Source of the DNA: a virus
Length of the DNA: 64,000 bases
Virus record (IMG/VR): IMGVR_UViG_3300032084_001540
Span: 1-64,000 of that record
Reading direction: 5' to 3' (one strand)
The notes below the pieces were generated by a model. The model searched no databases, was not told the origin of the DNA, and was given only the letters and a program-made list of their open reading frames with translations. The position numbers and the translations under genes are program-made. How positions within the stretch are numbered: the first letter of the stretch is position 1; every line of letters starts with the position of its first letter. This document shows positions 1-60,623 of the stretch, in pieces.

Positions 1-90
1 ATACATCAGGCGCTCGCTGATACTTCCATCAGCATACTTGACGGGATAGAAGTCAACAACCATGTTTCCGTGCTGTGCTGTGAGTTGCAT
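1..90 (-). CDS. Partial gene running off the left edge, unrecognised
   Basis: The minus strand is open from an ATG at 88-90 to the window edge, giving 30 residues beginning MQLTAQHGNMVVDFYPVKYA. Only the amino end is visible, so no function can be assigned. There is no strong Shine-Dalgarno; a GGAT lies about 8 nt upstream. It is separated from the next upstream gene by about 95 bases that contain a stem-loop. Confidence 0.5.
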   Translation of the reverse strand, partial: MQLTAQHGNMVVDFYPVKYADGSISERLMY

Positions 91-154
91 TGGGTTGGAT
101 CCGTTTCTTTGACTCTTTAATAATACACGATTTTGGGGTGCTCACAAGCGACCG

Positions 155-178
155 TGTGCCACTTTGGCAGGTGGCACA
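155..178 (-). terminator. Stem-loop between two minus-strand genes
   Basis: An 8-bp perfect stem (TGTGCCAC/GTGGCACA) with an 8-nt loop follows the 59-residue gene. No T-tract follows on the minus strand, so it may be a processing or mRNA 3'-end structure rather than an intrinsic terminator. Confidence 0.4.
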
Positions 179-184
179 AGGGTT

Positions 185-364
185 TTATACATTTTCAGGG
201 CTATCTTCCTCTGGAGAGGGATATGTTATGATGATTCTTTCCGTCCTTTCTCCCATAGAATTAAGGACAGATTGTCGGTGCCAAGTTCCACCAAGAATGT
301 TGCAGATGTTATTGAGTTGAATTTCCATCATCATTTTTGATGTTTTTTTGTCTAATTGTTTCAT
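185..364 (-). CDS. Small hypothetical protein, 59 aa
   Basis: ATG at 362-364 and TAA at 185-187 encode 59 residues. The start overlaps the stop of the upstream gene as ATGA, which suggests translational coupling, and a GGAGGT lies about 10 nt before the ATG. The protein has an amphipathic Lys/Met-rich amino end followed by NICNILGGTWHRQSVLNSMG and an acidic tail. I do not recognise a family. The good ribosome site and coupling are the main support for a real gene. Confidence 0.6.
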   Translation of the reverse strand: MKQLDKKTSKMMMEIQLNNICNILGGTWHRQSVLNSMGERTERIIITYPSPEEDSPENV

Positions 365-651
365 TGAAAAAATACCTCCAAACCAATAAAGTTACGTTTC
401 ATCGCTGTTAGTGGGAGTGTAGAGTTTATGTCAACAACCGCACCAACTTTCTTTGAATTAATTGGTGCGAAGTATTGTCGTTTCTTTGTGTTGTAAAACC
501 CCCAGATTGTGCTAACTGGAGCGCCACTATTGTAATTATAGTGGTGAAGATGGTCACACCAAATACTAATAACATTTGACTTAAATTCAGAGGTTCGGTA
601 TCTAAATCCTTTGGGTGCTTCATGAATAAAATCGGGGGGAAGTTCAATCAT
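361..651 (-). CDS. Conserved cyanophage-type hypothetical protein, 96 aa
   Basis: This 96-residue protein has a central stretch WGFYNTKKRQYFAPINSKKV, which I recall from unassigned small cyanomyovirus proteins of the form WGFYNTKxR-x-APINS. No catalytic motif or membrane segment is visible. It starts one base inside the stop of the KxDG protein gene and its stop overlaps the next ATG, so three genes form a tightly coupled series. Function unknown. Confidence 0.7.
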   Translation of the reverse strand: MIELPPDFIHEAPKGFRYRTSEFKSNVISIWCDHLHHYNYNSGAPVSTIWGFYNTKKRQYFAPINSKKVGAVVDINSTLPLTAMKRNFIGLEVFFQ

Positions 652-1586
652 CAGTTAGCAATAGCAAATCGTCCGTTATTAAAGTTAGCACGGGAGAACT
701 GTTGACGGTCAACCATCTTGAATGTGCCGTAGCAATTCTTGACAACAATGCCCTCATGTTTGGCAAGGTCGTCACCAATCAGGCAGACACACATCTCACG
801 AGCAAAGTATGACTCTGCTGCGACACTCTTCATCGTGATGATGAGATTGTAGAGAGCAAAGAATGCCCAGTCAATGTTAGTATCTTTGGCAAGATCGAAG
901 ACGTTGAGCTCTCTACCCTCGCGAATGTAAGAGTTGATTGTCTTCTTGACGTTTGCTTTTGCAACCTTAGTTTTGAACTCAGGGAACACAATATCTTGCA
1001 TCAAATATCGTGCATGTGCTGCAAGAACTTTGAGATCATGAGATGGTTTGATGTAAGTTGTATTTACAGACAGGAACTTAACATCATCAGAATACCAAAG
1101 ACCGTTGTAAGGTTCAGAAACAGCGGTTGCAATCGTGTCGCCACGGTATCGCGTATGAAGAGCAAATACGATCCGCTCATCAATAGGTTTCAAGAACTTG
1201 TAAGTGATAGTATTAGGAGTGGTTGACACATTACCACCTTCACCCATAAAATCACCCTGGAAGATGCCATCAACTCTAGGAAGATATTGCAGACAAAGTG
1301 TTAGTACACGACGAAGATTCTCTGACTCGTGGTTAGCATAAATGTCATCTACAGTATAGTTGATCTTGGGAGTTTTCTTGTTGAATACACTTTTAGTGCC
1401 AACAAAGAACTCACCGTTATCAGGATTCGTGCCAAATACAACGGCGGGAGCACCATCATACTTGACAGTTGCCATGTTGCCAACATCACCCTCAAGAGTA
1501 AACTCTAGGAACTTGATGACATTTAGAGCAGCATCTTTGCCGTCAAGTAGAAGATCTTCGGGGTGTTCGATGTGTGTGTTTTTCAT
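651..1586 (-). CDS. KxDG-motif nucleotidyltransferase-like protein (ligase fold), 311 aa
   Basis: Starting at ATG 1584-1586 the protein has 311 residues. It contains VKYDGAPAVVFG (K42-x-D44-G45), FQGDFM at 109-114, EGIVVK at 278-283 and FKMVDR at 289-294. These are in the right order for motifs I, III, IV and V of the ATP-grasp-unrelated ligase/capping nucleotidyltransferase superfamily, where the motif I lysine carries AMP or GMP. I infer a nucleotidyltransferase; whether it acts on RNA, DNA or protein is not visible. It differs from T4 RnlA, RnlB and gp30 in overall sequence. An upstream in-frame ATG at 1652 would overlap the helicase gene; the 1586 start was chosen because it leaves the conserved core intact and lies next to a promoter-like site. 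Confidence 0.65.
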   Translation of the reverse strand: MKNTHIEHPEDLLLDGKDAALNVIKFLEFTLEGDVGNMATVKYDGAPAVVFGTNPDNGEFFVGTKSVFNKKTPKINYTVDDIYANHESENLRRVLTLCLQYLPRVDGIFQGDFMGEGGNVSTTPNTITYKFLKPIDERIVFALHTRYRGDTIATAVSEPYNGLWYSDDVKFLSVNTTYIKPSHDLKVLAAHARYLMQDIVFPEFKTKVAKANVKKTINSYIREGRELNVFDLAKDTNIDWAFFALYNLIITMKSVAAESYFAREMCVCLIGDDLAKHEGIVVKNCYGTFKMVDRQQFSRANFNNGRFAIAN

Positions 1587-1592
1587 ACTGTT

Positions 1593-1621
1593 AGTATGGC
1601 ATGGAATGGGACAGAAATCAA
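1593..1621 (-). promoter_or_regulatory. Sigma-70-like promoter, TTGATT-17-CATACT
   Basis: The -35 box is at 1616-1621 and the -10 box at 1593-1598. The predicted start falls on or next to the ATG at 1586, implying an almost leaderless mRNA. The 12-mer CATGCCATACTA around the -10 also occurs at the helicase promoter (2876). Confidence 0.5.
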
Positions 1622-1651
1622 GCGATAGTGGACGGTTCGCCAACTGGCACA

Positions 1652-2854
1652 CTAGCGGCGGACGACACTATCTAACATCTCACCTTTCTCGAATACAGTA
1701 TCAACAACCGTCTGCAATGCTCTCGCAGTAGCAACACCAACGGTGGAATATACAGGCACAACGCATAGCCCATAGGTCTTAGATTCTGCACCAAGACGCA
1801 ACACACGACCGATAGTCTGTGTCATCTCGATGATATTCATGTTACGCATGAAGATGACAGTTTCCAACTCACTGACGTTGATACCCTCAGAGAGAATAGA
1901 ACGATGCAGAACAACAAACTTCTTCTCAGGATCGCGACCCCAAGCATTCAACGTATTGAAGAACTCTTCACGATTGACTTTCTTACCATCGACAACTGCA
2001 CCTGTCTTGGATGTGATATAGAGGTAAGAATAACCACGCTTGATCAACTGCATGGCAAAATCAGTTGCTGCAAACAAGTTCATAAGTTGCTTGCTAGTCT
2101 TCACACAAACCAGAATCTTCTTGGTATCAGTCTCTTCAATGGTGTCAATCACGTTCTCAGCATCAGTCTCACACGAAATCATCCGTGAGTTAGTGTGCAT
2201 TGCAAACTTTTGTGCATGAATACGAGGAGGGATAATGTATCCACCATCAACTAACTCAGGAGCAGAAATACGGGCAATGATTTGACCATAAACTGCCTCA
2301 TCATTCATGCCTGGTTTATTGATAGTGATTGAAGTCTTGCGCGTAGCTGTGAAGAAGTAGCAACGATCTGCCTCGTAAGAGAAGAACTCAGTGGGAGGGA
2401 AGAAGTTACGCTTAACGCTGTTATGTGCTTCGTCAAAGTATATTGTATTGACCTCAATATCTGCCTCCATGATACGGTGGAGAGAATTGTATGTGGTGAA
2501 GATGATGACATTCTCACCCATACTACGGGCGCAACCTGCATACAGATGAATCTTTTCTGCCTTGGTGGTGCTAGTGTAGTGAGTTTCACCACTGTGAACG
2601 TGCATCACATGCAGATATGGGTCACTGTTGTTAGGATCAATGACCTCCATAAACTCGCTGCAAAGTTGTTCAGCAAGGAGAATACGTGGAGCAACAACAA
2701 CTGTGGTGGTGCCGTTGTTGATACTATCCAGACGATTCTTGGTGTCTGTGATCATGCACATTGTCTTACCACCGCCAGTGGGGACAATTACCTGACCTTT
2801 GTCATAAGCAACCATACGATCGACAATCCGTTGCTGATGGGGACGCAGTTGCAT
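1652..2854 (-). CDS. Superfamily II DEAH-box helicase
   Basis: The likely start is ATG 2852-2854 (MQLRPHQQRIVDRM), giving 400 residues and fitting the Q-motif-like RPHQ opening of UvsW/Res-type helicases. Visible motifs: I PTGGGKT (25-31), II DEAH (141-144), III FTATR (168-172), and VI QTIGRVLR (346-353). These make it an ATP-dependent SF2 nucleic-acid translocase, probably for recombination, repair or fork remodelling. It is shorter than T4 UvsW, and I do not claim it is UvsW. A sigma-70-like promoter lies about 15-20 bases upstream of the chosen start, making it an early gene candidate. The ATG of the next gene (1586) lies 66 bases past its stop. Confidence 0.85.
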   Translation of the reverse strand: MQLRPHQQRIVDRMVAYDKGQVIVPTGGGKTMCMITDTKNRLDSINNGTTTVVVAPRILLAEQLCSEFMEVIDPNNSDPYLHVMHVHSGETHYTSTTKAEKIHLYAGCARSMGENVIIFTTYNSLHRIMEADIEVNTIYFDEAHNSVKRNFFPPTEFFSYEADRCYFFTATRKTSITINKPGMNDEAVYGQIIARISAPELVDGGYIIPPRIHAQKFAMHTNSRMISCETDAENVIDTIEETDTKKILVCVKTSKQLMNLFAATDFAMQLIKRGYSYLYITSKTGAVVDGKKVNREEFFNTLNAWGRDPEKKFVVLHRSILSEGINVSELETVIFMRNMNIIEMTQTIGRVLRLGAESKTYGLCVVPVYSTVGVATARALQTVVDTVFEKGEMLDSVVRR

Positions 2855-2875
2855 GAAGATCTCTGATATGAATAT

Positions 2876-2904
2876 AGTATGGCATGAAAAAAGCACTCTG
2901 TCAA
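2876..2904 (-). promoter_or_regulatory. Sigma-70 promoter, TTGACA-17-CATACT
   Basis: The -35 TTGACA is at 2899-2904 and the -10 CATACT at 2876-2881. The -35 hexamer is exactly the loop of the terminator stem at 2892-2911. It would drive the SF2 helicase (ATG at 2854). Confidence 0.75.
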
Positions 2905-2911
2905 GAGTGCT
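2886..2911 (-). terminator. Intrinsic terminator whose loop is the next -35 box
   Basis: On the minus strand AGCACTC-(TTGACA)-GAGTGCT is followed by a T-run. The 7-bp stem and T-tract make a good rho-independent terminator for the genes ending at 2940; the loop is a perfect -35 hexamer. Confidence 0.75.
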
Positions 2912-2939
2912 AGACCAGTTCATCAACTGTCACATGGTA

Positions 2940-3479
2940 TCAATTTGAGTCCATAACATCTGAATACTCACCATCATCGATAGATTTAACAAAAGTTGAT
3001 AGCAACTGCGGAGAGACTTCTTCGGCATAGTATAAGAACAGATCCTCATCTTCATAGAAGTCTTCATGGAAATCATCGTCCTTAATTTGCTTCAGCTCGT
3101 CCATATTTTGCTGAATCGATTGTGCATTGACATAAGATTCAACAAACTTTATCACAAACTCATCCAGTAAAACTGGATAGTTGTGCATTTGAATCTTCAG
3201 ACGTTCGTATAACTTTGCCTTCTCTGGGTTCTTTTTAAGAAAGTCGGGCAAAGTGTATGGTGATTCTTCATCCCAAGACTCAGCATCTTCTGCCTCTTCT
3301 TCTCTCTGATAAATCTCATCTTGCTCCTCTTCAGATAACGAAATAAGTTCATCATCTTTAAGTGGGACAGGATCAACACTTACAACTTCGTTTTCACGAA
3401 AATCTTCAAACTCATCAAAATCTTCCTCGTATGTAGGATCATTGTACTTAGGATCATTGTACTTAGGATCTTCACTCAT
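2940..3479 (-). CDS. Highly acidic hypothetical protein, 179 aa
   Basis: This 179-residue protein is rich in Asp/Glu throughout, with a short amino-terminal repeat DPKYNDPKYNDP encoded by a 15-bp direct repeat near 3440-3470. The middle (YTLPDFLKKNPEKAKLYERL) looks helical. No known domain is recognised. Strong negative charge could mean a DNA mimic or a protein-binding role, but this is only inference. Its start overlaps the end of the upstream acidic gene by 8 bases, and it is followed by an intrinsic terminator. Confidence 0.7.
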   Translation of the reverse strand: MSEDPKYNDPKYNDPTYEEDFDEFEDFRENEVVSVDPVPLKDDELISLSEEEQDEIYQREEEAEDAESWDEESPYTLPDFLKKNPEKAKLYERLKIQMHNYPVLLDEFVIKFVESYVNAQSIQQNMDELKQIKDDDFHEDFYEDEDLFLYYAEEVSPQLLSTFVKSIDDGEYSDVMDSN

Positions 3480-3843
3480 TTACTTCTTCCTCACTAAATT
3501 TTTCAGAAACTGCTTCACTTTCAACATCAATATCCACGTCGGCAGCATCAACGTCCTCACCTTCTTCTTCTAAAGAAGCTTCCATTTTGTCCTCCATATC
3601 TTCGATGTCTTTCTCATCAACAGGTGTGAATGGAATTTGACAGATTTCACATAGTTCTTTCAACGTATCGTTATCATAAATTTGTGCAATCTCCTTGCGT
3701 AGATCTTCAGCAGTATCGCCAACAAAACTATCAAGCATCATGTCATATGCAAACTTGTATAGTTCTTGTTCATCCATGCTTTCCAAAACTTTCACAGCGT
3801 AAGCACCGCTCAGTTTGGCAAATTGTTCATCAGTGTATGTCAT
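3472..3843 (-). CDS. Acidic hypothetical protein, 123 aa
   Basis: The first 80 residues look alpha-helical (MTYTDEQFAKLSGAYAVKVL) and contain ELCEIC; the last 45 residues are mostly Asp/Glu (EEEGEDVDAADVDIDVESEA). It is co-directional and overlapping with the following acidic protein, so the two may act together. No family recognised; function unknown. Confidence 0.7.
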   Translation of the reverse strand: MTYTDEQFAKLSGAYAVKVLESMDEQELYKFAYDMMLDSFVGDTAEDLRKEIAQIYDNDTLKELCEICQIPFTPVDEKDIEDMEDKMEASLEEEGEDVDAADVDIDVESEAVSEKFSEEEVNE

Positions 3844-3875
3844 TAGAAGATCAAATAGGTGTTGAAAAGTGTAAC

Positions 3876-4079
3876 TTATGTATGTGATAAAACCTTCCAG
3901 TTAATATCACTTTGTTCGGTTATCCAGAAAAAGTATTTACCATTGAATGAACGTAAGAACATTCTATTTTGTCCGAAAGATTCCTCCGTATGTTCTACCA
4001 CACAGACAGTAATCTTGTCCATTTCATTAGCAAATCGGTTTTTTGCTTTGTTTGAGAGTGGTTCAACTTCGACAATCAT
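3876..4079 (-). CDS. Small hypothetical protein, 67 aa
   Basis: A 67-residue protein starting MIVEVEPLSNKAKNRFANEM, with a likely beta-rich second half (RMFLRSFNGKYFFWITEQSD). It is soluble by appearance, with no motif recognised. It sits in a run of small co-directional genes between 3.4 and 5.1 kb. Confidence 0.65.
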   Translation of the reverse strand: MIVEVEPLSNKAKNRFANEMDKITVCVVEHTEESFGQNRMFLRSFNGKYFFWITEQSDINWKVLSHT

Positions 4080-4089
4080 AACAGCAATG

Positions 4090-4302
4090 TCACTTCTTTG
4101 TTATCTTAGCAATAAATTTGACTGCTGTCTCCTTAGTGCGACACTTCTTCAACTGGACACACTTGCCATCTTTGTTTGGTCCTATCACCATGAATTGTTT
4201 ACTCCTGGCAATCGGCACAGCAGCATAGTTTCCACAGTTAGAATAGAAACCCTGAGATTGTTGCTTAGAATCAAGAATATAGAAGTTTGGAGGATACTTC
4301 AA
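4090..4302 (-). CDS. Small basic hypothetical protein, 70 aa
   Basis: This Lys-rich 70-residue protein (net basic) has PNFYILDSKQQSQGFY near the amino end and KKCRTKETAVKFIAKITKK at the end. Its ATG overlaps the stop of the upstream gene as ATGA. A nucleic-acid-binding role would fit its charge but is not shown. Confidence 0.65.
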   Translation of the reverse strand: MKYPPNFYILDSKQQSQGFYSNCGNYAAVPIARSKQFMVIGPNKDGKCVQLKKCRTKETAVKFIAKITKK

Positions 4303-4514
4303 GAGTATGCGGCAGGATACAGTTCATCAAGAATTTTGTGACACTTCTTGTATGTCTTCATGTCATGAATGTTTTGTTTTTGGTAACTCCTAACAGCAGA
4401 GAAAATTAATTGATTCTTTTGCTGATAGTCTTCCTTGAATCGTGCAAAGTTTCGGCAACCACATTTTGGATAGTCACCATAAACTTCTTTGTACGCATCA
4501 TTCACATTCTTCAT
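4299..4514 (-). CDS. Small hypothetical protein, 71 aa
   Basis: The start at ATG 4512-4514 (MKNVNDAYKEVYGDYPKCGC) was chosen over an upstream in-frame start that would overlap the preceding gene by 100 bases; the chosen start overlaps by 17. The protein is Lys/Tyr/Gln-rich with CGCRNF and a second Cys near the end. No family recognised. Confidence 0.6.
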   Translation of the reverse strand: MKNVNDAYKEVYGDYPKCGCRNFARFKEDYQQKNQLIFSAVRSYQKQNIHDMKTYKKCHKILDELYPAAYS

Positions 4515-4695
4515 GACAGTTGTTGTTCTTTTGGTAAAGTTTTCGGACTTTTTTGAGTGCTTTGAGCTCATACTTAATGTTAGCATAAGCAGTTTCAGCA
4601 TCTAGTTTTTTTGCCATTTCCATGGCACAAATCATACTAACACGGGTTCCAAATAATTGGATTGCTTTATCGTAGCAGTCTTGTTCTTCGTACAT
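4498..4695 (-). CDS. Small hypothetical protein, 65 aa
   Basis: Sixty-five residues, predicted helical, starting MYEEQDCYDKAIQLFGTRVS and ending in CHEECE. The ATG is one base after the stop of the upstream gene. Four Cys residues could be metal-linked, but no clear zinc motif is present. Confidence 0.6.
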   Translation of the reverse strand: MYEEQDCYDKAIQLFGTRVSMICAMEMAKKLDAETAYANIKYELKALKKVRKLYQKNNNCHEECE

Positions 4696-4696
4696 T

Positions 4697-5095
4697 TTAC
4701 GCTGTAGATTTACGACCGTGAGTTGGGCATCTTGGGTTGATTAAATCAGTACAGTTACATACAGATTTAATTATACCACTATCAAAATGAATTTGCAACC
4801 TAGGGAATGGTGAATATTTACAATCCCATAGTGATGGATACACAGTGATGGTATTAAACAAATTCACAGCTCTAACTCTACCATGATTTCCGTTGGGAGT
4901 GTGTTTCAATAGTGGAAGTTTAGATTCTGGATTTGCCTCCCAATCTTGTGTTCCACTATAATCAATCTCAAATAGTTGTCCTATAGGTGAAATCCAATAG
5001 TGAGCACAACAATTATAGAGATCTTTAGTTTGCAACTCTCGTTGAAAACCAGGACCAAGATCATATGAAGATTTAATGGTATCAAATAAACCCAT
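4697..5095 (-). CDS. Conserved cyanophage-type hypothetical protein, 132 aa
   Basis: It begins MGLFDTIKSSYDLGPGFQRE, an opening I recall from unassigned cyanomyovirus proteins, and contains GQLFEIDYSGTQDW and a Cys-rich end (CNCTDLINPRCPTHG) that could bind zinc. It is preceded by a strong sigma-70 promoter (5123-5151) and a GGAGGT about 12 nt before the ATG, so early expression is likely. Function unknown. Confidence 0.75.
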   Translation of the reverse strand: MGLFDTIKSSYDLGPGFQRELQTKDLYNCCAHYWISPIGQLFEIDYSGTQDWEANPESKLPLLKHTPNGNHGRVRAVNLFNTITVYPSLWDCKYSPFPRLQIHFDSGIIKSVCNCTDLINPRCPTHGRKSTA

Positions 5096-5122
5096 AGTTA
5101 TTCTTGCACCTCCACAAAGGTT

Positions 5123-5151
5123 ATTTTATTCATGTTTTTAGAAATTGTCAA
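5123..5151 (-). promoter_or_regulatory. Sigma-70 promoter, TTGACA-17-TAAAAT
   Basis: A perfect -35 is at 5146-5151, overlapping the stop of the metallopeptidase gene, and a 5/6 -10 is at 5123-5128. The spacing is the ideal 17 bp. It drives the 132-residue gene and the following small genes. Confidence 0.8.
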
Positions 5152-5573
5152 TACTGTGTTAAGAATTGTTGACATAGTTGTGCTTCTTTACTGAACGATT
5201 CTTGCTCCCATGGTTCATCCTCATAGGTAGTATCGGGGTCGATAAGCTTACCGTGCCAGTAGTTTTTACCACGACGTTCTTTACGATCACTGACTAACCA
5301 TTGCTTGACATGTAACATCTCGTGCATCAATGTGCTGATGTAATTTTCTCTCTCAAGACCAGAGTGTAGTTCAATGAGAAACTCACGAGGACGATATGTG
5401 CTGTCCATAACAGTGCAAGCACCATTTAGACCTTCTCTCATAAGACCACGCACTACAATATCTACATCAAATTTATACCGATTAAGTTTGTGCCTGTTGA
5501 CAAACCACTCAACAGCAGATCTTGTGATCCGCTTGTATCCAGAATAGTCTGCAATTGAAAGGGAATAAGACAT
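5148..5573 (-). CDS. HExxH zinc metallopeptidase-like protein (SprT-like)
   Basis: The ATG at 5571-5573 (MSYSLSIADYSGYKRITRSA) gives 141 residues; a TTG two codons upstream is an alternative. Counted from the ATG, the zincin motif HEMLH lies near residues 84-88 (TLMHEMLHVKQW), with an acidic and His-containing region further on (YWHGKLIDPDTTYEDEPWEQ). This layout resembles SprT/WLM-type small metallopeptidases. Substrate unknown; a role in host or virion protein processing is possible. It lies just after the tail-fibre block in a separate transcription unit. Confidence 0.7.
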   Translation of the reverse strand: MSYSLSIADYSGYKRITRSAVEWFVNRHKLNRYKFDVDIVVRGLMREGLNGACTVMDSTYRPREFLIELHSGLERENYISTLMHEMLHVKQWLVSDRKERRGKNYWHGKLIDPDTTYEDEPWEQESFSKEAQLCQQFLTQY

Positions 5574-5640
5574 AACCAATGGAGAAACCAGACACCAGAA
5601 ATAACAAACAAGAGTTTCATGCGGTTAGGTCGTGTCGTTC

Positions 5641-5720
5641 ATATACACACTATAAGACCCCCACAAGCGTCTGCAAGGGGGGTATAGGACACTTTATAGA
5701 GTGTCACACGGTTTAGTCAA
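5641..5720 (-). promoter_or_regulatory. Fibre-operon end: two hairpins and a promoter-like site
   Basis: This intergenic stretch (5574-5712 has no convincing gene) holds GACACT-TTATAG-AGTGTC and a larger stem of CCCCC/GGGGG around 5668-5682. TTGACT-16-TATAAA (-35 at 5715-5720, -10 at 5693-5698) overlaps the first hairpin. It probably ends the fibre operon and restarts transcription for the metallopeptidase gene. Confidence 0.5.
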
Positions 5721-7344
5721 CAAAAGCAACCCAGTGCCATCCAACAATAGCATCTTTTGCTGCTGATAATTCGATGCCACCATAACCTTGTGTTCCTATT
5801 TTAGAGAATCCATTAACACCAACATCTGAAGAATGGTCATAATTTGTGGCACAATATGATGCGTTAGCTCTTTTACCATCGAGAGAATATGCTGTGATTT
5901 CTGGAGTGTCTGCCATTGGCACAGTATATCTCACACTTGTCGGGCGATTAGAAACGTTAACAGAAGCAGTGTGTCTATGATAAGTGGCACCAAGAGATGT
6001 AACTTGACCAGGAACTTTCTCATCTCCTGGAGAATAATCATATGAAGTTTGAAGATAACGCTGACATACACGCAAATCTTCTTCAAATCTCATGTATTCA
6101 AACTCTGATGGATATTTTTGACCAGGATGTGCGACTTCCCACTGAACACCAGTCATCTCAAACCAGTTTGACGCACTATCCATCAAACCAAAACCTCCAC
6201 CACGTTTTGCATCACTACTGTCAACCCAAGTTGAATCTGGAGTTCCACTATTATAGTTAGTTCCCTCATCTAACCAAGTATAGATAATAAAATCTGTACC
6301 AGTAAGAGAATCGTCACCATAAGCAGAACCAGGATTAGTATCTGCTGGAACAATGAAGTGCTTAAACTCCCAAGTATTTGCAGAGTTAATCGTTACTTCT
6401 TTGACAAAGTTTCTGGCAGGGTCAATATTACGAAACTCTACTGTAAATGTTCCTGTTTTATTTGAACGACACCAAAAACTGTAGATAGACTCTTTTGCAT
6501 TTGCATAACCATATCTGAGTGGTTCAATATCATCTCTACTATTAAATCTTTGTTGTATGAAGAAATACTCAGAAGCAGCAGGAGTTTCAGCACCATTACA
6601 ATCAATGTGTAAAGCATAATGATGACCAGTATCTGTACCAAATCCTGCACTTCTTGACATACCAACAGCATTATCCATGCTGCTGGCTAGATTCCACCTA
6701 TCAACACACATACAACCGTTATTTGCCGTTCTAGCGGTAACAGGAAGCGTAACAGATGTTGATAGTCCTAACTGAGCAATTCTCATGCCTCCATTATCAA
6801 TTAGGTTCCTACGGTAGGAAGTCGTAACAGCAGGATAATACTGATAGAGAGTATGAACACCAACGTTACCAGTTACTGACAGTGTGTGATCAGGATTTGT
6901 GGATGCGATGCCAACAGAACCACCACCATCAAAACTAATAGCAGTTCCATAACCTACCAAGTATGGAGTATTACTATCAGCACCATCATGTGAGTTTCCA
7001 AATGATACTTGACCAGTAGCATTAACATGCATCATGGTGCTACCATCAACTCTCAGTTTGATGGCACTATTCTCATATCCTCCTGTCTCGTCTGACTCAA
7101 TTTTGAGTGTGCTACTGTCTAATGATATTTGACCTGCATTAAGACTACCTCCCTCTTTTCTCATCAAGATAGTGGTCTCTGCACCATCACCTCTTGATAC
7201 TGTTAATGTGTGAGTGGTATTACCAATTCCACTAACATTAGTTGTACCGATGGCAACTGCTCGATTGGTTGCATCAACCGTTAGGGTCGCACCTTGAGTA
7301 CCAATCCCTGAAGCGTAATCAGCAAGAATCCTAGCCTGTGTCAT
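5713..7344 (-). CDS. Tail-fibre protein, 543 aa
   Basis: The amino part carries fibre repeats of the GIGTTN/VGIASTNPDHTLSVTG type, typical of trimeric cyanophage fibre shafts. From about residue 180, RRNLIDNGGMRIAQLG opens a globular carbohydrate-binding-like tip domain common at the end of marine phage fibres, which extends to WHWVAFVD at the carboxyl end. It likely contacts the host surface. It is the last gene of the fibre operon, preceded by a late-promoter-like AATAAATA and an AAAGGT ribosome site. Confidence 0.8.
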   Translation of the reverse strand: MTQARILADYASGIGTQGATLTVDATNRAVAIGTTNVSGIGNTTHTLTVSRGDGAETTILMRKEGGSLNAGQISLDSSTLKIESDETGGYENSAIKLRVDGSTMMHVNATGQVSFGNSHDGADSNTPYLVGYGTAISFDGGGSVGIASTNPDHTLSVTGNVGVHTLYQYYPAVTTSYRRNLIDNGGMRIAQLGLSTSVTLPVTARTANNGCMCVDRWNLASSMDNAVGMSRSAGFGTDTGHHYALHIDCNGAETPAASEYFFIQQRFNSRDDIEPLRYGYANAKESIYSFWCRSNKTGTFTVEFRNIDPARNFVKEVTINSANTWEFKHFIVPADTNPGSAYGDDSLTGTDFIIYTWLDEGTNYNSGTPDSTWVDSSDAKRGGGFGLMDSASNWFEMTGVQWEVAHPGQKYPSEFEYMRFEEDLRVCQRYLQTSYDYSPGDEKVPGQVTSLGATYHRHTASVNVSNRPTSVRYTVPMADTPEITAYSLDGKRANASYCATNYDHSSDVGVNGFSKIGTQGYGGIELSAAKDAIVGWHWVAFVD

Positions 7345-7357
7345 CGTTTTTTACCTT

Positions 7358-7365
7358 TATTTATT
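7358..7365 (-). promoter_or_regulatory. T4-late-like motif AATAAATA
   Basis: It sits 14-20 bases before the 543-residue fibre gene. T4 late promoters are TATAAATA; cyanophage versions are similar. Confidence 0.5.
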
Positions 7366-8194
7366 AAGCAGCAGCGACGTTTACAGCGCCAGCGTTAGTA
7401 ACAGTGATTTTGTATAATGTACCATTAGGTGCTGCAAGAATGACTCCAGCACCACTTTCAGACGTAAGTCTCATGTCACCAGTGCCACCCTCAAATGTGG
7501 CGACAGTGTTCACAGTAGTGTTATTCTTTCTTGCTTGAATAACAACAGATGCTTTTTTGTTAGTTGCATCAGTGTCAACAATTGTAGTAGCAACACGAGC
7601 ATATTCTGTCTTAGTTCCAGCAGCATCAAAAGAATCAAATCTCAGAACTCCAATGGTTTGACCATTCTGAATTGCTGGATCATTAGTGAATAATGATAGG
7701 TCTGGAGCTCCAATACCAGATGATGATGTAGATTCAATCGTTACAACTTGATCATTTGATGTACCACCAAAAACGTGAAGTGCTGTTGTTGGAGTATCGG
7801 TTCCAATACCAACCAGACCAGCAGAAGTTATACGAAGTCTTTCATCTCCTCCATATCTATATCTTAAAGACCCATTATCTGTTTGAGATATATTTGAGTC
7901 AGAACCTGCAGTATCATGTCTAATTTTTAATAAATTTTCACTCGTTCCAGATATTCTGATATTTCCATCTAAAACATGAAGTTTTCCAGAAACTGGATTA
8001 TCAGTTCCTATACCAACATCATCTTTACAATGTAAATTACTATGAACAGTGGCAACACCAGTGATCTGAGTACCACCCTCAACGTATAATCTATCACCAA
8101 CATCAGCAGTGGTGCCGATACCTAAAGTACCAGCACCCTCATTGACGTGAATGTCAAAAGAAAACTTAGATAATTCTCTTGCTTTACTAGACAT
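7364..8194 (-). CDS. Tail-fibre shaft-like protein, 276 aa
   Basis: This protein consists largely of fibre-type repeats (VGIGTDNPVSGKLHVLDG, VGIGTDTPTTALHVFGG) and ends in a short beta-rich domain (GTLYKITVTNAGAVNVAAA). It has no receptor-tip domain or chaperone, so it may be a shaft or connecting segment assembled with the neighbouring fibre genes. Preceded by CTAAATA 18 bases upstream. Confidence 0.75.
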   Translation of the reverse strand: MSSKARELSKFSFDIHVNEGAGTLGIGTTADVGDRLYVEGGTQITGVATVHSNLHCKDDVGIGTDNPVSGKLHVLDGNIRISGTSENLLKIRHDTAGSDSNISQTDNGSLRYRYGGDERLRITSAGLVGIGTDTPTTALHVFGGTSNDQVVTIESTSSSGIGAPDLSLFTNDPAIQNGQTIGVLRFDSFDAAGTKTEYARVATTIVDTDATNKKASVVIQARKNNTTVNTVATFEGGTGDMRLTSESGAGVILAAPNGTLYKITVTNAGAVNVAAA

Positions 8195-8206
8195 GATTAT
8201 ACTTTT

Positions 8207-10978
8207 TTAAATATTTAGTTCGGACCTGAGGTAAGCAACCTCAGTTTCCAATACTTTAACTTTACCAGCAAGATCCTGGAGTGCTCTCAACATTGGTGCT
8301 GTCAGTTTCTTATAGTGAACAGTAACAAGTTCTTGTCCACCATCAGGAGTTGGATCATAGTCACAGAGTTCAACGTTGATTGGTTCAACTTCCTCTGCAA
8401 TCAGACCATATTCAAGTTCAGTTTCTGCCTCTTCAGTCCACTCACCAGTTTCATCATTTTGAATTCTGTAGTTATATTCAACAGGGTTTAAATCATAGAT
8501 CCAATCAATACTCTCAGATGTTAATCCAACAATATTTTTCTTAGTTTTCCGAGCAGAACTATTATAACCAAAACGACCGTTAGATCTTACGAACAAGTCT
8601 CTTCTGGTGGATCCCAGAGCTTCAGAATATGACCTAGCATTGATAATTGCACCGTTGCTGTTTAACTGGAAACGAGTGGTAGCACCATTGCAACGCAGAG
8701 ACATTGTAGTTCCAGGAGATTGAATAATCCCAACTCCAGTAATCTGCAAGTCATCATTACCAGCAGAGTCTTGGAACGTTGTGCTAGTGGTTCCAGATTT
8801 TAAAATTCCAGAACCATTGATTGTCAAGTCAACGTTACCAGCACTGTCCTCGAATTGAAATGTTCCCCCACCTGATCGCAGAGTTCCAGTGGTTCCAGTA
8901 ATCCTCATTCTGGTCGTATTATTAGTCTTAAACAGAATATGTGATTCTGACTGATCAAGTAAAATTTCTTCACCCCCATCATTACTTGTGAGTGTAAGAT
9001 CATCTGTTGACCCAGCAATAGTTCCAAAAGATACACTTCCACTAAATGTTGAAACACCAGCGATAGTCATTCCATGATCAACAACCAAACTTCCACTAGT
9101 TCTTGCTCCATCAGCAGTGGTAGCAAACATATTAACATTGTTATAATATAAGTTTGTTGATCCACCGTCTTGTGAAAAGATGTGAAATTTATTATTATAT
9201 CCCATCATCATGTCACCCGTGCTAAGGGTAATGTTAGACCCTGTTACATCCGTAGGTGGATTGGCAGCAGTATCCATATCACTACCAATCAAAATACTCC
9301 TGTCTAAGGAGTTTGGTAGTTCTAAATTATGTCCAATAACAACATTACCATTAGTAGAATTGTCTGTTACATTTTCATTGATTTCAGATCCGATGATAAC
9401 ATTATCAGTTCCTCCATTTGTATTGCACATCGCACGACTGCCAATAATGACAGAATTTGTGCTCGATGTTGGTGCTCCAAGAGCATATCCAATTCTAACA
9501 TTGTTAGCAGCACCACTTGCTCCAGCAGCAGTACATCCAAGTGAAATAAGTCTAGAGGAAGTGCCGCTCTTATCACCAGGACCAGCGTTAATCAGAATGG
9601 GTGCGTATCCATCGGTGTTAGCATTATCCACGCACATGCTAACACCAAGTCCTAATACTACGGATTCATTAGTGGTTGGTGCGGGATTATCACCAAGAGT
9701 TACACCAATACCAATCTGTCCGTCTGGACCAAGAACAACTCTTTGCTTGTTAGTAGATGCGCCTGGAGATCCGCTGCTGGTACTACCTGTATAGAAGTTA
9801 ATTGCTCCATCAGTGCTATGAGTGACAATTTCTAAGTTATTTCCCCCCTGACCAGTTCCATCATAACCATATCCAATGAATGGCATATTTGTCTCGCCAT
9901 TACGATGATCTTCAGATATAGGTCTGAAGGCAATACCACCAGCAACTCTAACTCTGGCATCATTCATCTCATGCCTTGAATTATAATCAATAAACGTACC
10001 AAATCCAGTGATTCCAAGACCATCATCTGGTCGAGCAGATGCACTCGTATCAACTTTTGCGCTGATATGTACTCTTTCTGAGTTCAGATTGTCACCAAGG
10101 ATGATACTGGACTGGAATCCACATTGTCCAGTGAGATTATCACCCTGAGATCCTACCTTGACCTTAAAGTTTCCTGATGTTTGTTCGTCCTGAAATTCAA
10201 TCTCACAGCGTTCTTCATCTCCGTCCTCATTACGGAATCGGGCAAGAATTTTTACATTATCCGATCTTACATGAAATAATGTTTGTGGTGCTAGAGTTCC
10301 AATACCAGTATTTCCACTTTGATCAATAACAAATGGAGAGTAATCTGGATTTAATTCGTCAGAAACTCTAAAACTATTTCTTGATTGGGTATTAACAATT
10401 TCTAATGCAGCTCCAGGAACACTGGTTCCGATACCTACGCTTGCATCAGCACCATCAACTGTAACACCTGTATTTTGTTCACCAACAGTTAGTACACCAA
10501 CAATTCTGGTGTTTCCATCACAGAAGATAGCAGCACTATCTTTACCCATGGTGACAGTGCCGATACCATTCTGAGTGCCAAATGTACTCAGACCAGTAAT
10601 GCTAATGTTATCAAGAGCAGTAGCAGCAGCAGTCAAAAATCCAACAACACCAAGACTACCAGCAACATCTAAGTTTCCAGTTACTTTTAGTGTGCCTACT
10701 GTACCTGGATTAGAGACATTAAATGCCTTGAATACTACAACTTCTACTTTATCATTTGTCTCGCACGGATCATCGAGAATGATGCTGCTGCTATCATTTG
10801 CAGTATAATCCTCACCTTCAAGTAACTTGATACCATTTAGGTAAACTTGAATAAATCCAACGTCATATTGACCAGTAACAACAAAAGTTTTCTGCCCTGA
10901 TGTGGCAGTAAAAATCTGTCTACCAATAGTAGTGTTGGAGTCAGCAGGATTTCTGCCGATATATCCGTAATCAGCCAT
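8207..10978 (-). CDS. Tail fibre with C-terminal S74 self-cleaving chaperone
   Basis: The 923-residue protein starts with an appendage-anchoring domain (residues ~10-95: IGRQIFTATSGQKTFVVTGQ, VYLNGIKLLEGEDYT). Fibre repeats follow (VGIGTSVPGAALEIVN and similar). From about residue 800 comes a Peptidase_S74 intramolecular chaperone: Ser808-ARKT-Lys813 provides the S/K dyad five residues apart, then GLIAEEV, and a coiled-coil end (LAGKVKVLETEVAYLRSEL). In this family the chaperone trimerises the fibre and then cuts itself off. It starts directly at the stop of the 176-residue gene, with a TGATG-type overlap. Confidence 0.9.
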   Translation of the reverse strand: MADYGYIGRNPADSNTTIGRQIFTATSGQKTFVVTGQYDVGFIQVYLNGIKLLEGEDYTANDSSSIILDDPCETNDKVEVVVFKAFNVSNPGTVGTLKVTGNLDVAGSLGVVGFLTAAATALDNISITGLSTFGTQNGIGTVTMGKDSAAIFCDGNTRIVGVLTVGEQNTGVTVDGADASVGIGTSVPGAALEIVNTQSRNSFRVSDELNPDYSPFVIDQSGNTGIGTLAPQTLFHVRSDNVKILARFRNEDGDEERCEIEFQDEQTSGNFKVKVGSQGDNLTGQCGFQSSIILGDNLNSERVHISAKVDTSASARPDDGLGITGFGTFIDYNSRHEMNDARVRVAGGIAFRPISEDHRNGETNMPFIGYGYDGTGQGGNNLEIVTHSTDGAINFYTGSTSSGSPGASTNKQRVVLGPDGQIGIGVTLGDNPAPTTNESVVLGLGVSMCVDNANTDGYAPILINAGPGDKSGTSSRLISLGCTAAGASGAANNVRIGYALGAPTSSTNSVIIGSRAMCNTNGGTDNVIIGSEINENVTDNSTNGNVVIGHNLELPNSLDRSILIGSDMDTAANPPTDVTGSNITLSTGDMMMGYNNKFHIFSQDGGSTNLYYNNVNMFATTADGARTSGSLVVDHGMTIAGVSTFSGSVSFGTIAGSTDDLTLTSNDGGEEILLDQSESHILFKTNNTTRMRITGTTGTLRSGGGTFQFEDSAGNVDLTINGSGILKSGTTSTTFQDSAGNDDLQITGVGIIQSPGTTMSLRCNGATTRFQLNSNGAIINARSYSEALGSTRRDLFVRSNGRFGYNSSARKTKKNIVGLTSESIDWIYDLNPVEYNYRIQNDETGEWTEEAETELEYGLIAEEVEPINVELCDYDPTPDGGQELVTVHYKKLTAPMLRALQDLAGKVKVLETEVAYLRSELNI
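8212..8218 (-). promoter_or_regulatory. Late-like motif CTAAATA
   Basis: Located 18 bases before the 276-residue gene, overlapping the stop codon of the S74 fibre gene. Confidence 0.45.
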
Positions 10979-11508
10979 CAGTTAACACCTGTAAGGAAAC
11001 TAAAGTTTACGTCGAGAGAATTGTTGGTGCTAGAAAATACTCGAACAGTGTCTCCAGCTCCAAGAACAGTTTTACCAGCATCAGAAATGACAACAGATGA
11101 ACCAGTTGGAACTGGAATATCTGCTAACAGCATTACATCAACATTATCAGAGGTTGAAACAACAACTGTTGCACCAATTTGACTACTAGTAAGATTAGAA
11201 AGAGTGCCACCAATGATGATATTTTTTTCTGATGCAGTTAGAATATCGGATGGTCTACTAAAATCTATTTGTTGTCCAGCAGCAAAAGAAGAATTCACTG
11301 ATGATTCAGACATAACAACGCTGCCTGCACCAACCGATGTAACTTTTGCTCCAATGCGAAAATTACTGTTAAGAACATAATCTCCAATAGAAACACCAGC
11401 AGTACTGATTCCACTAATAGTTGTTGTTGTGGTAGAGATAACTCCTGAGGAGTTGGCAGTGACGATACCAACAGATCGTTTAACTGCCTTACTAAAACTT
11501 TCAGCCAT
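10978..11508 (-). CDS. Structural protein of the fibre operon, 176 aa
   Basis: A 176-residue Ser/Thr/Val-rich beta protein with no Cys (TTTTTISGISTAGVSIGDYV; ASEKNIIIGGTLSNLTSSQI). It has the feel of a small trimeric tail-appendage adaptor and lies between two fibre genes. A strong AGGAGG and a late-like AATAAATA precede it. No domain family recognised. Confidence 0.7.
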   Translation of the reverse strand: MAESFSKAVKRSVGIVTANSSGVISTTTTTISGISTAGVSIGDYVLNSNFRIGAKVTSVGAGSVVMSESSVNSSFAAGQQIDFSRPSDILTASEKNIIIGGTLSNLTSSQIGATVVVSTSDNVDVMLLADIPVPTGSSVVISDAGKTVLGAGDTVRVFSSTNNSLDVNFSFLTGVN

Positions 11509-11528
11509 TGTTCCTTAAAACCTCCTAG

Positions 11529-11536
11529 TATTTATT
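11529..11536 (-). promoter_or_regulatory. T4-late-like motif AATAAATA
   Basis: Located about 20-28 bases before the 176-residue gene, followed by AGGAGG; overlaps the stop of the 1315-residue fibre gene. Confidence 0.55.
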
Positions 11537-14500
11537 AACCGCCCAAGGCGATTACGAGACCGACTGTTGGCACAGATGATCCATTTAATGTCAAAACACC
11601 TTCAATATCGGTATCACCAATAACTTGAAGTGTCTTACCTGGATCGGTGGTGCCTACACCGACCATAACCGTTGAACCGAGCGAGATAACAGTGAAGGAG
11701 CTAAGAGCAGCACCAACCTGTAATGTATTGAGTGGATTTGTGGTTGCAATACCAACACTCCTGAGGGTATTAATACCAGCAGCAGTGCTACTCCAACGAG
11801 CACTGGTATGAACAGAAGTTTCAATACCAGTCAAGGATTGACCTTCACCTCGATATGAGGCAGCAGTTACAATACCCTGAACATTTACTTGTCCTTCATT
11901 AAAGAAGACGAAAGAAGAAACACCAACAGTAGCAATACCAGTGATGCTTAGGTGTGTGGCAACACCAACACCGTGCATTGTGAAACCCTCAGGAGTAGTT
12001 TCAGCAAGAATTGCACCAGCATAGTAAAGTTCAACACCACCACCTTCAACTGCTTTTAGGAGAGTATCTCCGTTAGAGTTACCAATAAACGATGCTGGTG
12101 AACCATGAATATTGATAGCACCAGTACCAACGTCCTTGATATATGAGTCACTACCATCATGATAGATGAGCAAGTCACCAGCATCACCAAAGTTTAGTAC
12201 AGCACCATCAGCGAAGAATACGCTAGAGGTGAATCCAACCGTGCTACCAAAACCAACGTTGAAGAATGTGGAGAATCCAGTGGAATGTATGTCAGTGAAG
12301 ATGCCAGAGTTAGCACGGAACTGATTATGAACAGTACCGAACCCAGTTACATCCAGATTCTTAGTAGATGTAATACCAAGAATATCAATATCACTTTGAA
12401 GTGTTACATGTTCTTGAACATTGACAGTTGAGTTAATATCAACTGCACCCCCATAAGTGGAGACACCGACAACATTAAAACTTCCAACACTTAAGTTGCC
12501 ACTGACATCAGCACTAGCATCAACATCAACAGTATTATTAAACGTTGATACACCTACAACATTTAGATCATCTAACTCAGTGTGCCCATCTACATCAATT
12601 GATGCATTGATATCAATATCAGAAGCGAATGTAGAAATACCAGTGACATTGAGTGTCTCACTAATATTAGTGATATCAAGTTCAGTTATACCATCAACAT
12701 CTAATCCAGCATTAAGATCTACATCAGAAGCAAATGTGGCAATACCAGTAACATTAAGTGTCTCGCTAATATTTGTAATGTCAAGTTCAGTTATGCCATC
12801 AACATCTATCGATGCATTGATATCAATATCAGAACCAAATGTAGATATTCCAGATACGTTAAGTGTCTCACTGATATTAGTAATATCTAACTCAGTACGA
12901 CCATCAACATCTATTGACGCATTGATATCAATATCAGAACCAAATGTAGATATTCCAGATACGTTAAGTGTTTCTGCAATATTGGTGATATCTAATTCAG
13001 TTCTTCCATCAACATCTAAGTCAGCATTAAGATCTACATTAGAAGCAAATGTAGCAATACCAGATACATTCAGATTGTCAAGTTCAGTATGACCATCAAT
13101 ATCTACATCGCCATCAGCATCAATAGCACCTGAGAATGTTGATACACCTACAACCTCAAAGTTGCCAGTGGAGGTAATTCCCTGAACATTTAGGTTCTCA
13201 TTAACTGTAGAGAATCCAGTGATTCTCAGTTCATTAATCGTACCAACTCCAGTGACACTCAGGTCAGTAGATAATGCACTTCTAGACCTAAGTTGATTGA
13301 ATACTGTGGTAAAACCAGATGCTTCAAAGTTATACGATGTTGTCTGACCAACAATATTCAGGTTTCCTGTAGATGTAATACCCTGAACGTTCAGGTTTTG
13401 CTGAACTGTTGTGAACCCAGTAACCCGAAGTTCTTGAATTGTACCTACGCCAGTGACACTCAGGTCAGTGGATAATGCACTTCTAGATCTAAATTGATTG
13501 AATACAGTGGCAAATCCAGAGGCAGCAAAGTTTCTGGTTGTAGTTTGTCCTACAACATTCAAATTGCCAACAGAGGTGATACCAAGGACATTCAGATTGT
13601 GACCAATGGTACTAAATCCAGTGATGTTAATATCCTGGAGAGTGACATCATCTAGAGTAATATCATCAGCAATGAGATCACCAGATACGACCAAATCACC
13701 TTCAATATATGCTACTGTAGTGCCCTCAGTTGACGCTGAGGCAACATGTAGAGAGTATTTTGGATCATTGGTATTGATACCAATGCTTCCAAGTCCTGTT
13801 ACCCCATTAACCTCCGCTCTGAAAGCTGTTCCACTAACTCCAACATGGAATGTAGAACCAACAGTAGAGATTCCAGAAGTATATGTGTCTGTAAATACAC
13901 CAGATCTGGAACGGAACTGATTATGAACCGTGCCAAAACCAGTTACATCTAGATTCTTAGTAGATGTGATTCCAAGAATATGAATATCATCTTGAACTGT
14001 CGTAAATCCAGTAACTCTAAGTTCTTGGATTGTACCGACACCAGAGACATACAAATCTGTAGAGATTGCACTTCTAGATCTAAACTGATTGAATACAGTA
14101 CCAAAACCTGATGCTTCGATATTGTATGAAGTTGTCTGACCTACAATATTAAGATTACCAGTAGAGGTAATGCCTTGAATATTAAGATTCTCTTGAACTG
14201 TGGTAAATCCAGTAACTCTAAGTTCTTGAATTGTACCAACACCAGTAACACTTAAGTCAGTGGAGATAGCACTTCTGGATCTAAACTGATTGAATACAGT
14301 ACCAAAACCTGATGCTTCAATATTATAGGATGTTGTTTGTCCTACAACGTTTAAGTTGCCAGTAGAGGTGATGCCCTGGATGTTCAGATTCTCCTGAACT
14401 GTTGTGAATCCAGTGACCCTTAACTCTTGAATAGTGCCAACACCCGATACATATAGATCGGTAGAGATTGCACTCCTAGTCCTGAACTGATTGAATACAG

Positions 14501-57917: not shown

Positions 57918-57925
57918 TTATTTAG
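57918..57925 (-). promoter_or_regulatory. Late-like motif CTAAATAA
   Basis: 20-27 bases before the ATG of the FmdB-like gene; supports the shorter start at 57898. Confidence 0.5.
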
Positions 57926-58944
57926 AGTTTGATCCATCGAGGATTGTCTAGAGTCCATTGAACGACCTCTTTAACTCGATCCTCAATGGGTTTGGGTTCC
58001 CATCCCATCAGTTTCATCTTCTCTCCAGACAAAGCATAGCGAAGATCATGACCAGGACGTGCTGAATGGAAGTCAACCAGATCATACTTAAGATCTTTAC
58101 CTTGTGCGAGAGCAATCATCTGTGCCAACTCAAGGTTGTTCAGTTCTCTTGCACCAACAATATTAAACTTAGGACATTTAGCATCTCCCCAGTTTAATTC
58201 TACGACTGTAGGTTGTTCCAGGAGGAAGAGCAAGGCGTCTGAAACATCTTCAGCATGGATATAGTGCCTAGAACCAGGAATCGTCCTTGTAGCGTCACTG
58301 TGAATAGTAATAGTCTCACCATCACGTACACGTTTAATACACATTGGAATGTATTTCTCTGGATGCTGACGCTGACCAAAGACATTCATCGTGTGAGTGA
58401 TGTAGACAGGCAGTTTGTAAGTGTTTTGAAATGCTACTGCCAGTTCTTCACCACCTGCCTTACTAGCACTGTAGGGATTGGTGGAGTTGTAACGGTCATT
58501 CTCTCCATAAAGAATGCCATTAGGTGCAGGTCCGAATACTTCGTCAGTACCAAAGTAAACAAATCTTTCTAGGTGATCAAGTCCACGAGCATAGTCAAGG
58601 ATGTTGCAGGTAGCAACGACATTATCCATCACGAACTCCATAGGGAATTCAATGCTGCGATCCACATGGGAACCAGCAGCAAGGTGAAGGATGTAATCAA
58701 CCTTCCCAATATCAGCAGCAATCAATGGATTCACTGCTGCTTTCAGGTCATGGAAAACAACTTTAACGCGAGCACGATCAGCAGGAGAGAAGTCCTTCAG
58801 GACATCATGCAAACGATTCAGATTACCACTAAAGTCTAATCTATCAAGTGTAACAACTTCCCAGTCAGTATTCTTTAGAATCTGGGATACAAGATGGTGG
58901 GCAATAAAACCAGCACCACCAGTAATAAGAGCTCTCTTACTCAT
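57922..58944 (-). CDS. NAD-dependent sugar-nucleotide 4,6-dehydratase (RmlB-like)
   Basis: A 340-residue extended short-chain dehydrogenase: GGAGFIA (9-15) binds NAD, SHVDRSIEFPMEF follows, T133-D134-E135 (FGTDEVFG) and Y158-x3-K162 (YSASK) are the catalytic triad of dTDP-glucose 4,6-dehydratases. RHYIHAEDVSDALL is also typical. Sugar specificity cannot be read from the sequence. It could modify host LPS or supply sugars for phage glycans. It overlaps the next gene start by four bases. Confidence 0.85.
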   Translation of the reverse strand: MSKRALITGGAGFIAHHLVSQILKNTDWEVVTLDRLDFSGNLNRLHDVLKDFSPADRARVKVVFHDLKAAVNPLIAADIGKVDYILHLAAGSHVDRSIEFPMEFVMDNVVATCNILDYARGLDHLERFVYFGTDEVFGPAPNGILYGENDRYNSTNPYSASKAGGEELAVAFQNTYKLPVYITHTMNVFGQRQHPEKYIPMCIKRVRDGETITIHSDATRTIPGSRHYIHAEDVSDALLFLLEQPTVVELNWGDAKCPKFNIVGARELNNLELAQMIALAQGKDLKYDLVDFHSARPGHDLRYALSGEKMKLMGWEPKPIEDRVKEVVQWTLDNPRWIKL

Positions 58945-59153
58945 TCAATTTCCTCTGTTTTTTTATTAAATCCAAATGGACCTGCTGATTTTTCTTCCAA
59001 TGCTAGTTTTAGTGCGACACTGCCGACTGCTTCCATACATTTAAGAATGTCTTCTGTCTTAGCACCTTCACCAAGTTCTTTAGCGATGTACCAATACTTA
59101 GGCCAAAATGTTTGACCTGCCAATTCATAATCTTCAAGTGTTAATAGTTTCAT
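58941..59153 (-). CDS. Small hypothetical protein, 70 aa
   Basis: ATG 59151-59153 (MKLLTLEDYELAGQTFWPKY) overlaps the ThyX stop as ATGA. The protein is helical with WYIAKELGEGAKTEDIL and an end FGFNKKTEEIE. Unrecognised. Tight coupling with ThyX and the dehydratase suggests one operon. Confidence 0.65.
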   Translation of the reverse strand: MKLLTLEDYELAGQTFWPKYWYIAKELGEGAKTEDILKCMEAVGSVALKLALEEKSAGPFGFNKKTEEIE

Positions 59154-60231: not shown

Positions 60232-60260
60232 ATTATACACAAAAAAGGAGAGATCGTCAA
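60232..60260 (-). promoter_or_regulatory. Sigma-70 promoter, TTGACG-17-TATAAT
   Basis: The -35 at 60255-60260 lies in the loop of the terminator at 60245-60271; the perfect -10 is at 60232-60237. It drives the 73-residue gene and the genes through ThyX. Confidence 0.75.
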
Positions 60261-60271
60261 GACCTCTCCTT
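60241..60271 (-). terminator. Intrinsic terminator with a promoter in its loop
   Basis: An 8-bp stem AAGGAGAG/CTCTCCTT with an 11-nt loop is followed by a minus-strand T-run. It lies 7 bases past the stop at 60278. Its loop holds the -35 of the next promoter. Confidence 0.85.
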
Positions 60272-60466: not shown

Positions 60467-60623
60467 AACACCTCCATGTACGGAACTTATGGTCACATGA
60501 TTTAAGGTGGAAAGTTTCAAACCATTTGATCACCTCATAATTCTACCAGTATATAGTTGATTTGTGTGTAAATGAATACAATTGAGAAACAAAAATTTAT
60601 GCCTATGAGTTTATACTTATGCA
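60467..60623 (-). other. 157-base non-coding stretch
   Basis: Leader of the 62-residue gene. It contains a weak -10-like TATACT (60548-60553) without a good -35, and the AT-rich string GCATAA twice. No gene is seen on either strand. Confidence 0.4.

Follow-up and report, generated by a model that had tools for sequence, protein, structure and literature searches.

A candidate nested terminator-promoter at a transcription-unit boundary of T4-like cyanophages

In the 64,000-nucleotide stretch of viral DNA analysed here (the window), positions 2876 to 2911 carry, on the minus strand, a hairpin and T-run whose loop reads TTGACA, followed at promoter distance by a -10-like hexamer. The question raised by this locus is whether the same bases end one transcript and begin the next. 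The site is best explained as a nested terminator-promoter marking a transcription-unit boundary of T4-like cyanophages, a reading to which a probability of about 0.82 was assigned on the strength of sequence comparison.

Architecture of the element and its flanking genes

The window was found to derive from a T4-like cyanophage; Synechococcus phages were its nearest DNA matches. The element adjoins the stop codon of its upstream gene, which lies 28 nt from the hairpin, and the ATG of a helicase gene, both genes reading leftwards (Table 1). PHROG and Pfam searches with the 179-amino-acid upstream protein returned no match. Directly downstream of the helicase gene, ORF 651-1652 (-) matched Pfam DUF6267 (2.5e-75). 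Elsewhere in the window, ORF 11535-15482 (-) encodes 1315 amino acids with many TGFTTVQENLNIQGITSTGNLNVVGQ-type repeats, probably a structural, fibre-like protein; 57922-58944 (-) and 59150-59788 (-) matched an NAD-dependent epimerase/dehydratase and a ThyX-type thymidylate synthase, respectively (Pfam); and a strong plus-strand hairpin lies near the window edge at 155-178 (TGTGCCACTT-TGGC-AGGTGGCACA then AGGGTTTTAT).

Table 1. Positions of the helicase-locus element, its flanking genes and further elements in the window and in cyanophage genomes
Feature	Sequence	Position	Strand	Details
Terminator hairpin AGCACTC-TTGACA-GAGTGCT	Window	2892..2911	(-)	7 bp; 8 bp if the U and A of the hexamer are paired
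-35 hexamer TTGACA	Window	2899..2904	(-)	6/6; in hairpin loop
T-run	Window	2887..2892	(-)	Six T, the first being the final stem base; within promoter spacer
TGC of extended -10	Window	2884-2882	(-)	Precedes CATACT
-10 hexamer CATACT	Window	2876..2881	(-)	4/6; spacing 17
Predicted transcription start (A)	Window	2869	(-)	About 7 nt past -10; from sequence layout
UvsW-like DNA helicase, 400 aa (downstream gene)	Window	1652..2854; ATG 2854	(-)	PHROG 16 DNA helicase, 1.5e-61; Pfam ResIII, DEAD, Helicase_C
Acidic hypothetical protein, 179 aa (upstream gene)	Window	2940..3479; stop codon 2942-2940	(-)	
Second nested element	Window	60232..60271	(-)	Hairpin 60271-60245, AAGGAGAGGTC-TTGAC-GATCTCTCCTT
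Gap elements	ACG-2014f	27248, 32541, 36317, 45051		
Gap elements	P-SSM2	42317, 53941, 66936		
Gap element	S-SM2	167143		Before hli03
Gap elements	S-CAM3	50471, 62767		50471 before helicase

RNA folding gave a hairpin of -10.9 kcal/mol (z -3.0), a stability equalled in 1 of 200 shuffles, in which the outer U and A of the hexamer form an eighth pair and leave a UGAC loop. As in an intrinsic terminator, the hairpin is stable, contains GC and is immediately followed by the T-run; further along the minus strand the T-run (2892-2887) gives way to CATGC and then CATACT (2881-2876). The spacer between TTGACA and CATACT is 17 bp (GAGTGCTTTTTTCATGC), inside the 16-18 bp range of sigma70 promoters, and TGN stands ahead of the -10, as in the extended -10 type. 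The initial annotation had described this hairpin, its TTGACA loop, the T-run in the spacer and CATACT at 17 bp, with coordinates that proved exact to the base. The upstream transcript is predicted to end in the T-run (2887..2892), and a helicase mRNA begun at about 2869 would have a 15-nt leader before its ATG and would exclude the hairpin. Two other readings of the hairpin were rejected: a known structured RNA, no Rfam match being found in the window, and a bidirectional terminator, the other side having no T-run.

The two signals stand in a fixed register, in which the -35 occupies the loop, the 3' arm, T-run and TGN together make up the 17-bp spacer and the -10 lies just past it. They are compatible because an arm of 7 bp and a tail of 10 bases add up to 17, the promoter spacer length, and because the loop letters are the part of a terminator freest to serve as a -35. 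A second nested element was located in the window, where the -35 (TTGACG, 60260-60255) again falls in the loop at a spacing of 17 from the -10 (60237-60232), which reads TATAAT and is better than the CATACT of the helicase element. Its hairpin starts directly after the stop of ORF 60278-60520, and a small ORF lies downstream (ATG 60204).

Conservation and variation at the helicase locus

When the composite was defined strictly, with Watson-Crick pairs only, the window contained a single match, and a match arose in 1 of 300 resampled windows. The resampling here, like that of genomes below, followed an order-1 Markov model and did not shuffle dinucleotides exactly. As the definition was set after the site had been seen, this is weak evidence. 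Generic scans of positions 1-12000 revealed no excess of promoter-like sites (35 against 32.3) or of terminator-like sites (6 against 7.1). The evidence that the nested element is not a product of chance is therefore its conservation, which argues firmly for that conclusion.

The exact 20-mer was present in five IMG/VR stretches, one of which (L004) is the contig of locus L174. When megablast was run with the region, the element alone (49 bases) was matched in phage S-BM1, while an 81-base query matched 503 places in 316 phage records, of which 253 were Synechococcus phages and 37 were named 'Cyanophage' (E-value limit 10, the weakest rows being chance). Searching for the element with a pattern of fixed length proved too rigid, with matches in only 4 of 17 records.

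The region upstream of the helicase gene was surveyed in 76 of 80 IMG/VR loci, the remaining four (L187, L205, L251 and L252) being excluded as they had no usable upstream DNA, and a hairpin was found in 69 of the 76. The initial annotation had named absence of the motif from close relatives as grounds for abandoning the idea; TTGAC was present at the top of the hairpin in 10 of the 13 loci with upstream DNA whose helicase protein was 82-99% identical. The other three comprised a degenerate form (L183) and two loci that lack it (L185, L186).

Twelve elements were aligned (alignment A1); these rows were hand-picked for having the element and display its variation, not its frequency. L174 was omitted as it has the same element as the window, and L180-L184, L208 and others as their stem lengths differ. 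TTGAC, the T-run, TG and the -10 core were kept in all 12 rows while the arms varied; the sixth base of the hexamer was A in ten rows and T in two, the first five being invariant, and the -10 of Syn19 read AATACT. Across the seven stem pairs 97.4% of cells were paired, with double changes at 4 of the 7 pairs, and the covariation score was reached by none of 500 shuffles; shifting the partner by 1-3 columns reduced pairing to 23-61%. The hairpin is thus kept as a structure and the loop as a sequence, a pattern expected of a terminator whose loop carries a -35 but not of a protein operator. The proposal that termination and initiation signals lie on the same bases was borne out, both being conserved, one through the covarying stem and the other through the invariant TTGAC, T-run, TG and -10 core.

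Removal of 19 identical rows from the 69 helicase-upstream hairpins left 50 distinct ones. The -35 lay in the loop in 10 and partly in the loop in 2, and in the 5' arm in a further 10; 22 had a -10 and no good -35, 4 had a 4/6 match, and 2 had no -10. The 5'-arm layout belongs to distant helicase orthologs and took two forms, ACCCCTTGAC-TTTCGG-GTCAGGGGGT-TT-TATATT with a 17-bp spacing (8 of 50) and a different sequence whose arm contains TTTACA (2 of 50). In the eight loci of the first form (L190, L194, L197, L200, L201, L231, L250 and L253), TTGACT lies 17 bp from TATATT, the loop is UUCG-like and the T-run is short. A long hairpin, GCACAGAG...CTCTGTGC, was seen upstream of the helicase in L189, L191, L192, L198, L206, L207, L210 and others; it abuts a -10-like TATA[GTC]T almost without a T-run, and its -35 is unrecognisable. 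At the P-SSM2 helicase a hairpin with a GAAA loop precedes TATAAT, which indicates that a hairpin and a -10 can occur together without a -35.

Hairpins coupled to -10 boxes in cyanophage genomes

A promoter-blind scan of 15 cyanophage genomes called 353 distinct terminators. A sigma70-like -10 started 7-12 bases past the stem in 74 of these (class defined as [TC]AT[AGT]NT at positions +7 to +12, set after the first scans and without use of the -35; the AATACT element of Syn19 falls outside it), and TGN preceded it in 46. Starts of the -10 peaked at 10 bases past the stem (25 elements), against 0-7 per position beyond 18.

The 74 coupled terminators were then scored for hexamers matching TTGACA in at least 5 of 6 positions at spacings of 8-25. 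Matches were found in 19 at a spacing of 17, in 4 at 16, in 1 at 18 and in 1 at 24, and in none at any other spacing; controls gave 0-0.8% (0.6% at 17). A -35 at 16-18 was thus present in 24 of 74 coupled terminators compared to 6 of 279 others (Fisher 4e-13), and TTGACA was the top-ranked of all hexamers at a spacing of 17. To allow for the non-independence of elements related across genomes, similar elements were clustered, which gave 14 of 55 clusters against a mean of 4.5 of 243. At least four bases of the -35 lay in the unpaired loop in 21 of the 24 elements with a good -35 and, conversely, a -10 followed 16 of 20 terminators with TTGAC in the loop compared to 58 of 333 with other loops.

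Under a stricter, first definition of the -10, a -35 of at least 5/6 was found in 15 of 78 terminators compared to 15 of 275 (Fisher 4e-4; rank test 2e-8), while TTGAC in the loop did not differ significantly (6 of 78 against 14 of 275), CATACT being excluded by that definition. Avoidance of UUCG/GNRA loops in the coupled class was not significant (7 of 74 against 40 of 279, p 0.34). Among strong promoter-like sites, many of which are likely chance matches, 18 of 1063 were nested, against 1 of 762 in resampled genomes. A late-type TAAATA box was seen no more than 30 nt after 46 of the 353 terminators, and none of these 46 had TTGAC in the loop.

Nesting is not universal in cyanophages. Most terminators coupled to a -10 (50 of 74) had no good -35 in register, and no nested element with a good -35 was found in Syn9, P-HM2 or S-CRM01. 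Scans of T4, HTVC008M and RB49 (first 50 kb) gave no nested case at 5/6 for both hexamers and, at the loosest setting (5/6 and 4/6), a single one in T4.

In the annotated stretches examined from ACG-2014f, P-SSM2, S-SM2 and S-CAM3, the elements located lay in short gaps between co-directional genes (Table 1), with two exceptions. The hairpin at ACG-2014f 31962 starts within the final bases of the upstream gene, and the element at S-SM2 143543 lies entirely inside an annotated small ORF, in which case either the annotation or the element is wrong.

Interpretation and relation to known composite signals

As a boundary element, the site would end the upstream transcript and start transcription of the helicase gene from a host-type promoter. 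A polymerase elongating from upstream would make the hairpin and be released in the T-run; independently, polymerase carrying a host sigma factor would bind TTGACA and the extended -10 and start at about 2869. An open complex covers about -55 to +20 and an elongating polymerase some 18 bp in front of its active site; with such footprints, both polymerases could not be present together. A polymerase arriving from upstream would be stalled by an occupied promoter close to the stop codon at 2940, with the hairpin still unmade, and a terminating polymerase would cover the -10; mutual exclusion of the two is expected from this geometry. The initial annotation had proposed that promoter-bound polymerase might block upstream transcripts, or that the hairpin might tune how many of them get through.

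The overlap may have no regulatory effect at all, the DNA being shared on account of short gaps and each signal working as it would alone. This is a sub-case of the nested terminator-promoter, which itself claims no coupling, and we give it a somewhat better than even chance. Terminators also stand directly before late-type boxes (the 46 of 353 with TAAATA within 30 nt), many hairpins are followed by a -10 box in the absence of a good -35, and the geometry follows from lengths alone; no direct counter-evidence was found, the present data fitting space-saving or regulatory fusion equally.

A more elaborate and improbable alternative is that the polymerase released at the T-run stays on the DNA and loads the overlapping promoter, such that upstream transcription would feed the helicase gene. 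The release point at about 2887 is only some 18 bp from the predicted start and within the promoter, and E. coli polymerase is described in passages of PMC6978322 as usually remaining on DNA after intrinsic termination and as able to restart. The same passages, however, describe restarts as mostly antisense and the retained enzyme as core, which must rebind sigma. An equally doubtful extension is a transcription relay, in which the terminated polymerase would be re-used at the next promoter and a polymerase approaching an occupied promoter would be held back at the upstream stop codon before making the hairpin; if true, cyanophages would couple or alternate neighbouring transcription units by means of 36 bases.

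It is much less probable that the site is a terminator only, with the TTGACA loop and the -10 coincidental and the helicase gene served by read-through or another promoter. CATACT matches the consensus at just four positions and the region has no excess of promoter-like sites, but TTGAC and the -10 core were retained in 12 of 12 aligned elements and TTGAC loops were strongly coupled to a -10 (16 of 20 against 58 of 333). Least probable of all, and rejected on the stem covariation, is an operator in which a dimeric regulator binds the inverted repeat that flanks the -35 and the T-run is incidental: operators are commonly arranged as inverted repeats across a -35, but the arms change by compensation (double changes at 4 of 7 pairs) around a constant loop, stems at other elements are unrelated where a sequence-specific protein would keep the arms, and the T-run is invariant in A1.

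If the site is a nested terminator-promoter, abundant marine viruses would thereby pack stop and start signals into about 36 bases by a design rule that can be counted (loop equal to the -35, stem arm plus T-run equal to the spacer). Recognition of this rule would improve operon prediction in cyanophages, as terminator and promoter callers handle the two signals separately, and the element would provide a natural template for studying whether a terminator-released polymerase can be handed to the next promoter.

Composite promoter-terminator cassettes of T4-like phages were reportedly described by Arbiol in 2010 and Comeau in 2014, and are said to combine an active early promoter with an active terminator, to yield DNA mini-circles and to be associated with module exchange. 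These promoter-early stem-loops (PeSLs) are already published (cited in PMC4503421 and PMC5348500), and a passage of PMC4503421 puts their density in S-PM2 below that in other T4-like phages. The present element resembles them in joining a stem-loop terminator and a sigma70-type promoter in one small intergenic cassette between co-directional genes, and in occurring in T4-like phages in several copies per genome with unrelated genes on either side. In RB49 (positions 1-50000 scanned), three clear tandem cases were located (34519, 45360 and 47771, minus strand), in which the -35 begins 13-16 nt past the stem. Unlike these copies, in which terminator, gap, -35 and -10 follow in turn (an order measured here on RB49 and not taken from the PeSL papers), the -35 of the present element lies in the loop and starts 13 nt before the stem end. 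The element therefore looks like a nested, tighter variant of the PeSL-type composite signal when compared with the RB49 copies. Searches of open-licence papers, a limited base, for promoters inside or over terminators and for cyanophage promoters and terminators showed no description of the nested layout among the papers listed.

The middle genes of Syn9 are reportedly driven by host-like promoters (Doron, 2016). Nucleic-acid metabolism genes of cyanomyoviruses are classed as middle genes in a passage of PMC7238727. The helicase element is similar in placing a sigma70-type promoter ahead of a DNA-metabolism gene, and differs in that Syn9 lacks any nested element with a good -35. To our knowledge, no nested terminator accompanies the Syn9 middle promoters. 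The element also shares its parts with the ordinary succession of an intrinsic terminator and an extended -10 promoter (GC-rich hairpin and T-run, TGN before the -10), although in the ordinary case the terminator and the -35 and spacer usually lie on separate DNA.

A near-identical cassette was found before the helicase gene in the window and in Syn19, and before a different gene in S-BM1 and S-RIM2. The S-BM1 and S-RIM2 copies of this different gene share 97% identity and have no relationship with the gene that precedes the element in the window; between the window and S-E7, too, the genes preceding the element are unrelated. As the element is found at several genes in one genome and, in different phages, beside unrelated genes, it probably acts, or once acted, as a module junction. 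In S-RIM12 (KX349308), the elements at 38977 and 41824 were observed to have near-identical tails past the T-run (ATGCCATACTATAAGAGTCAAAGGAA) and different stems, as if a cassette had been copied and its stem had then drifted.
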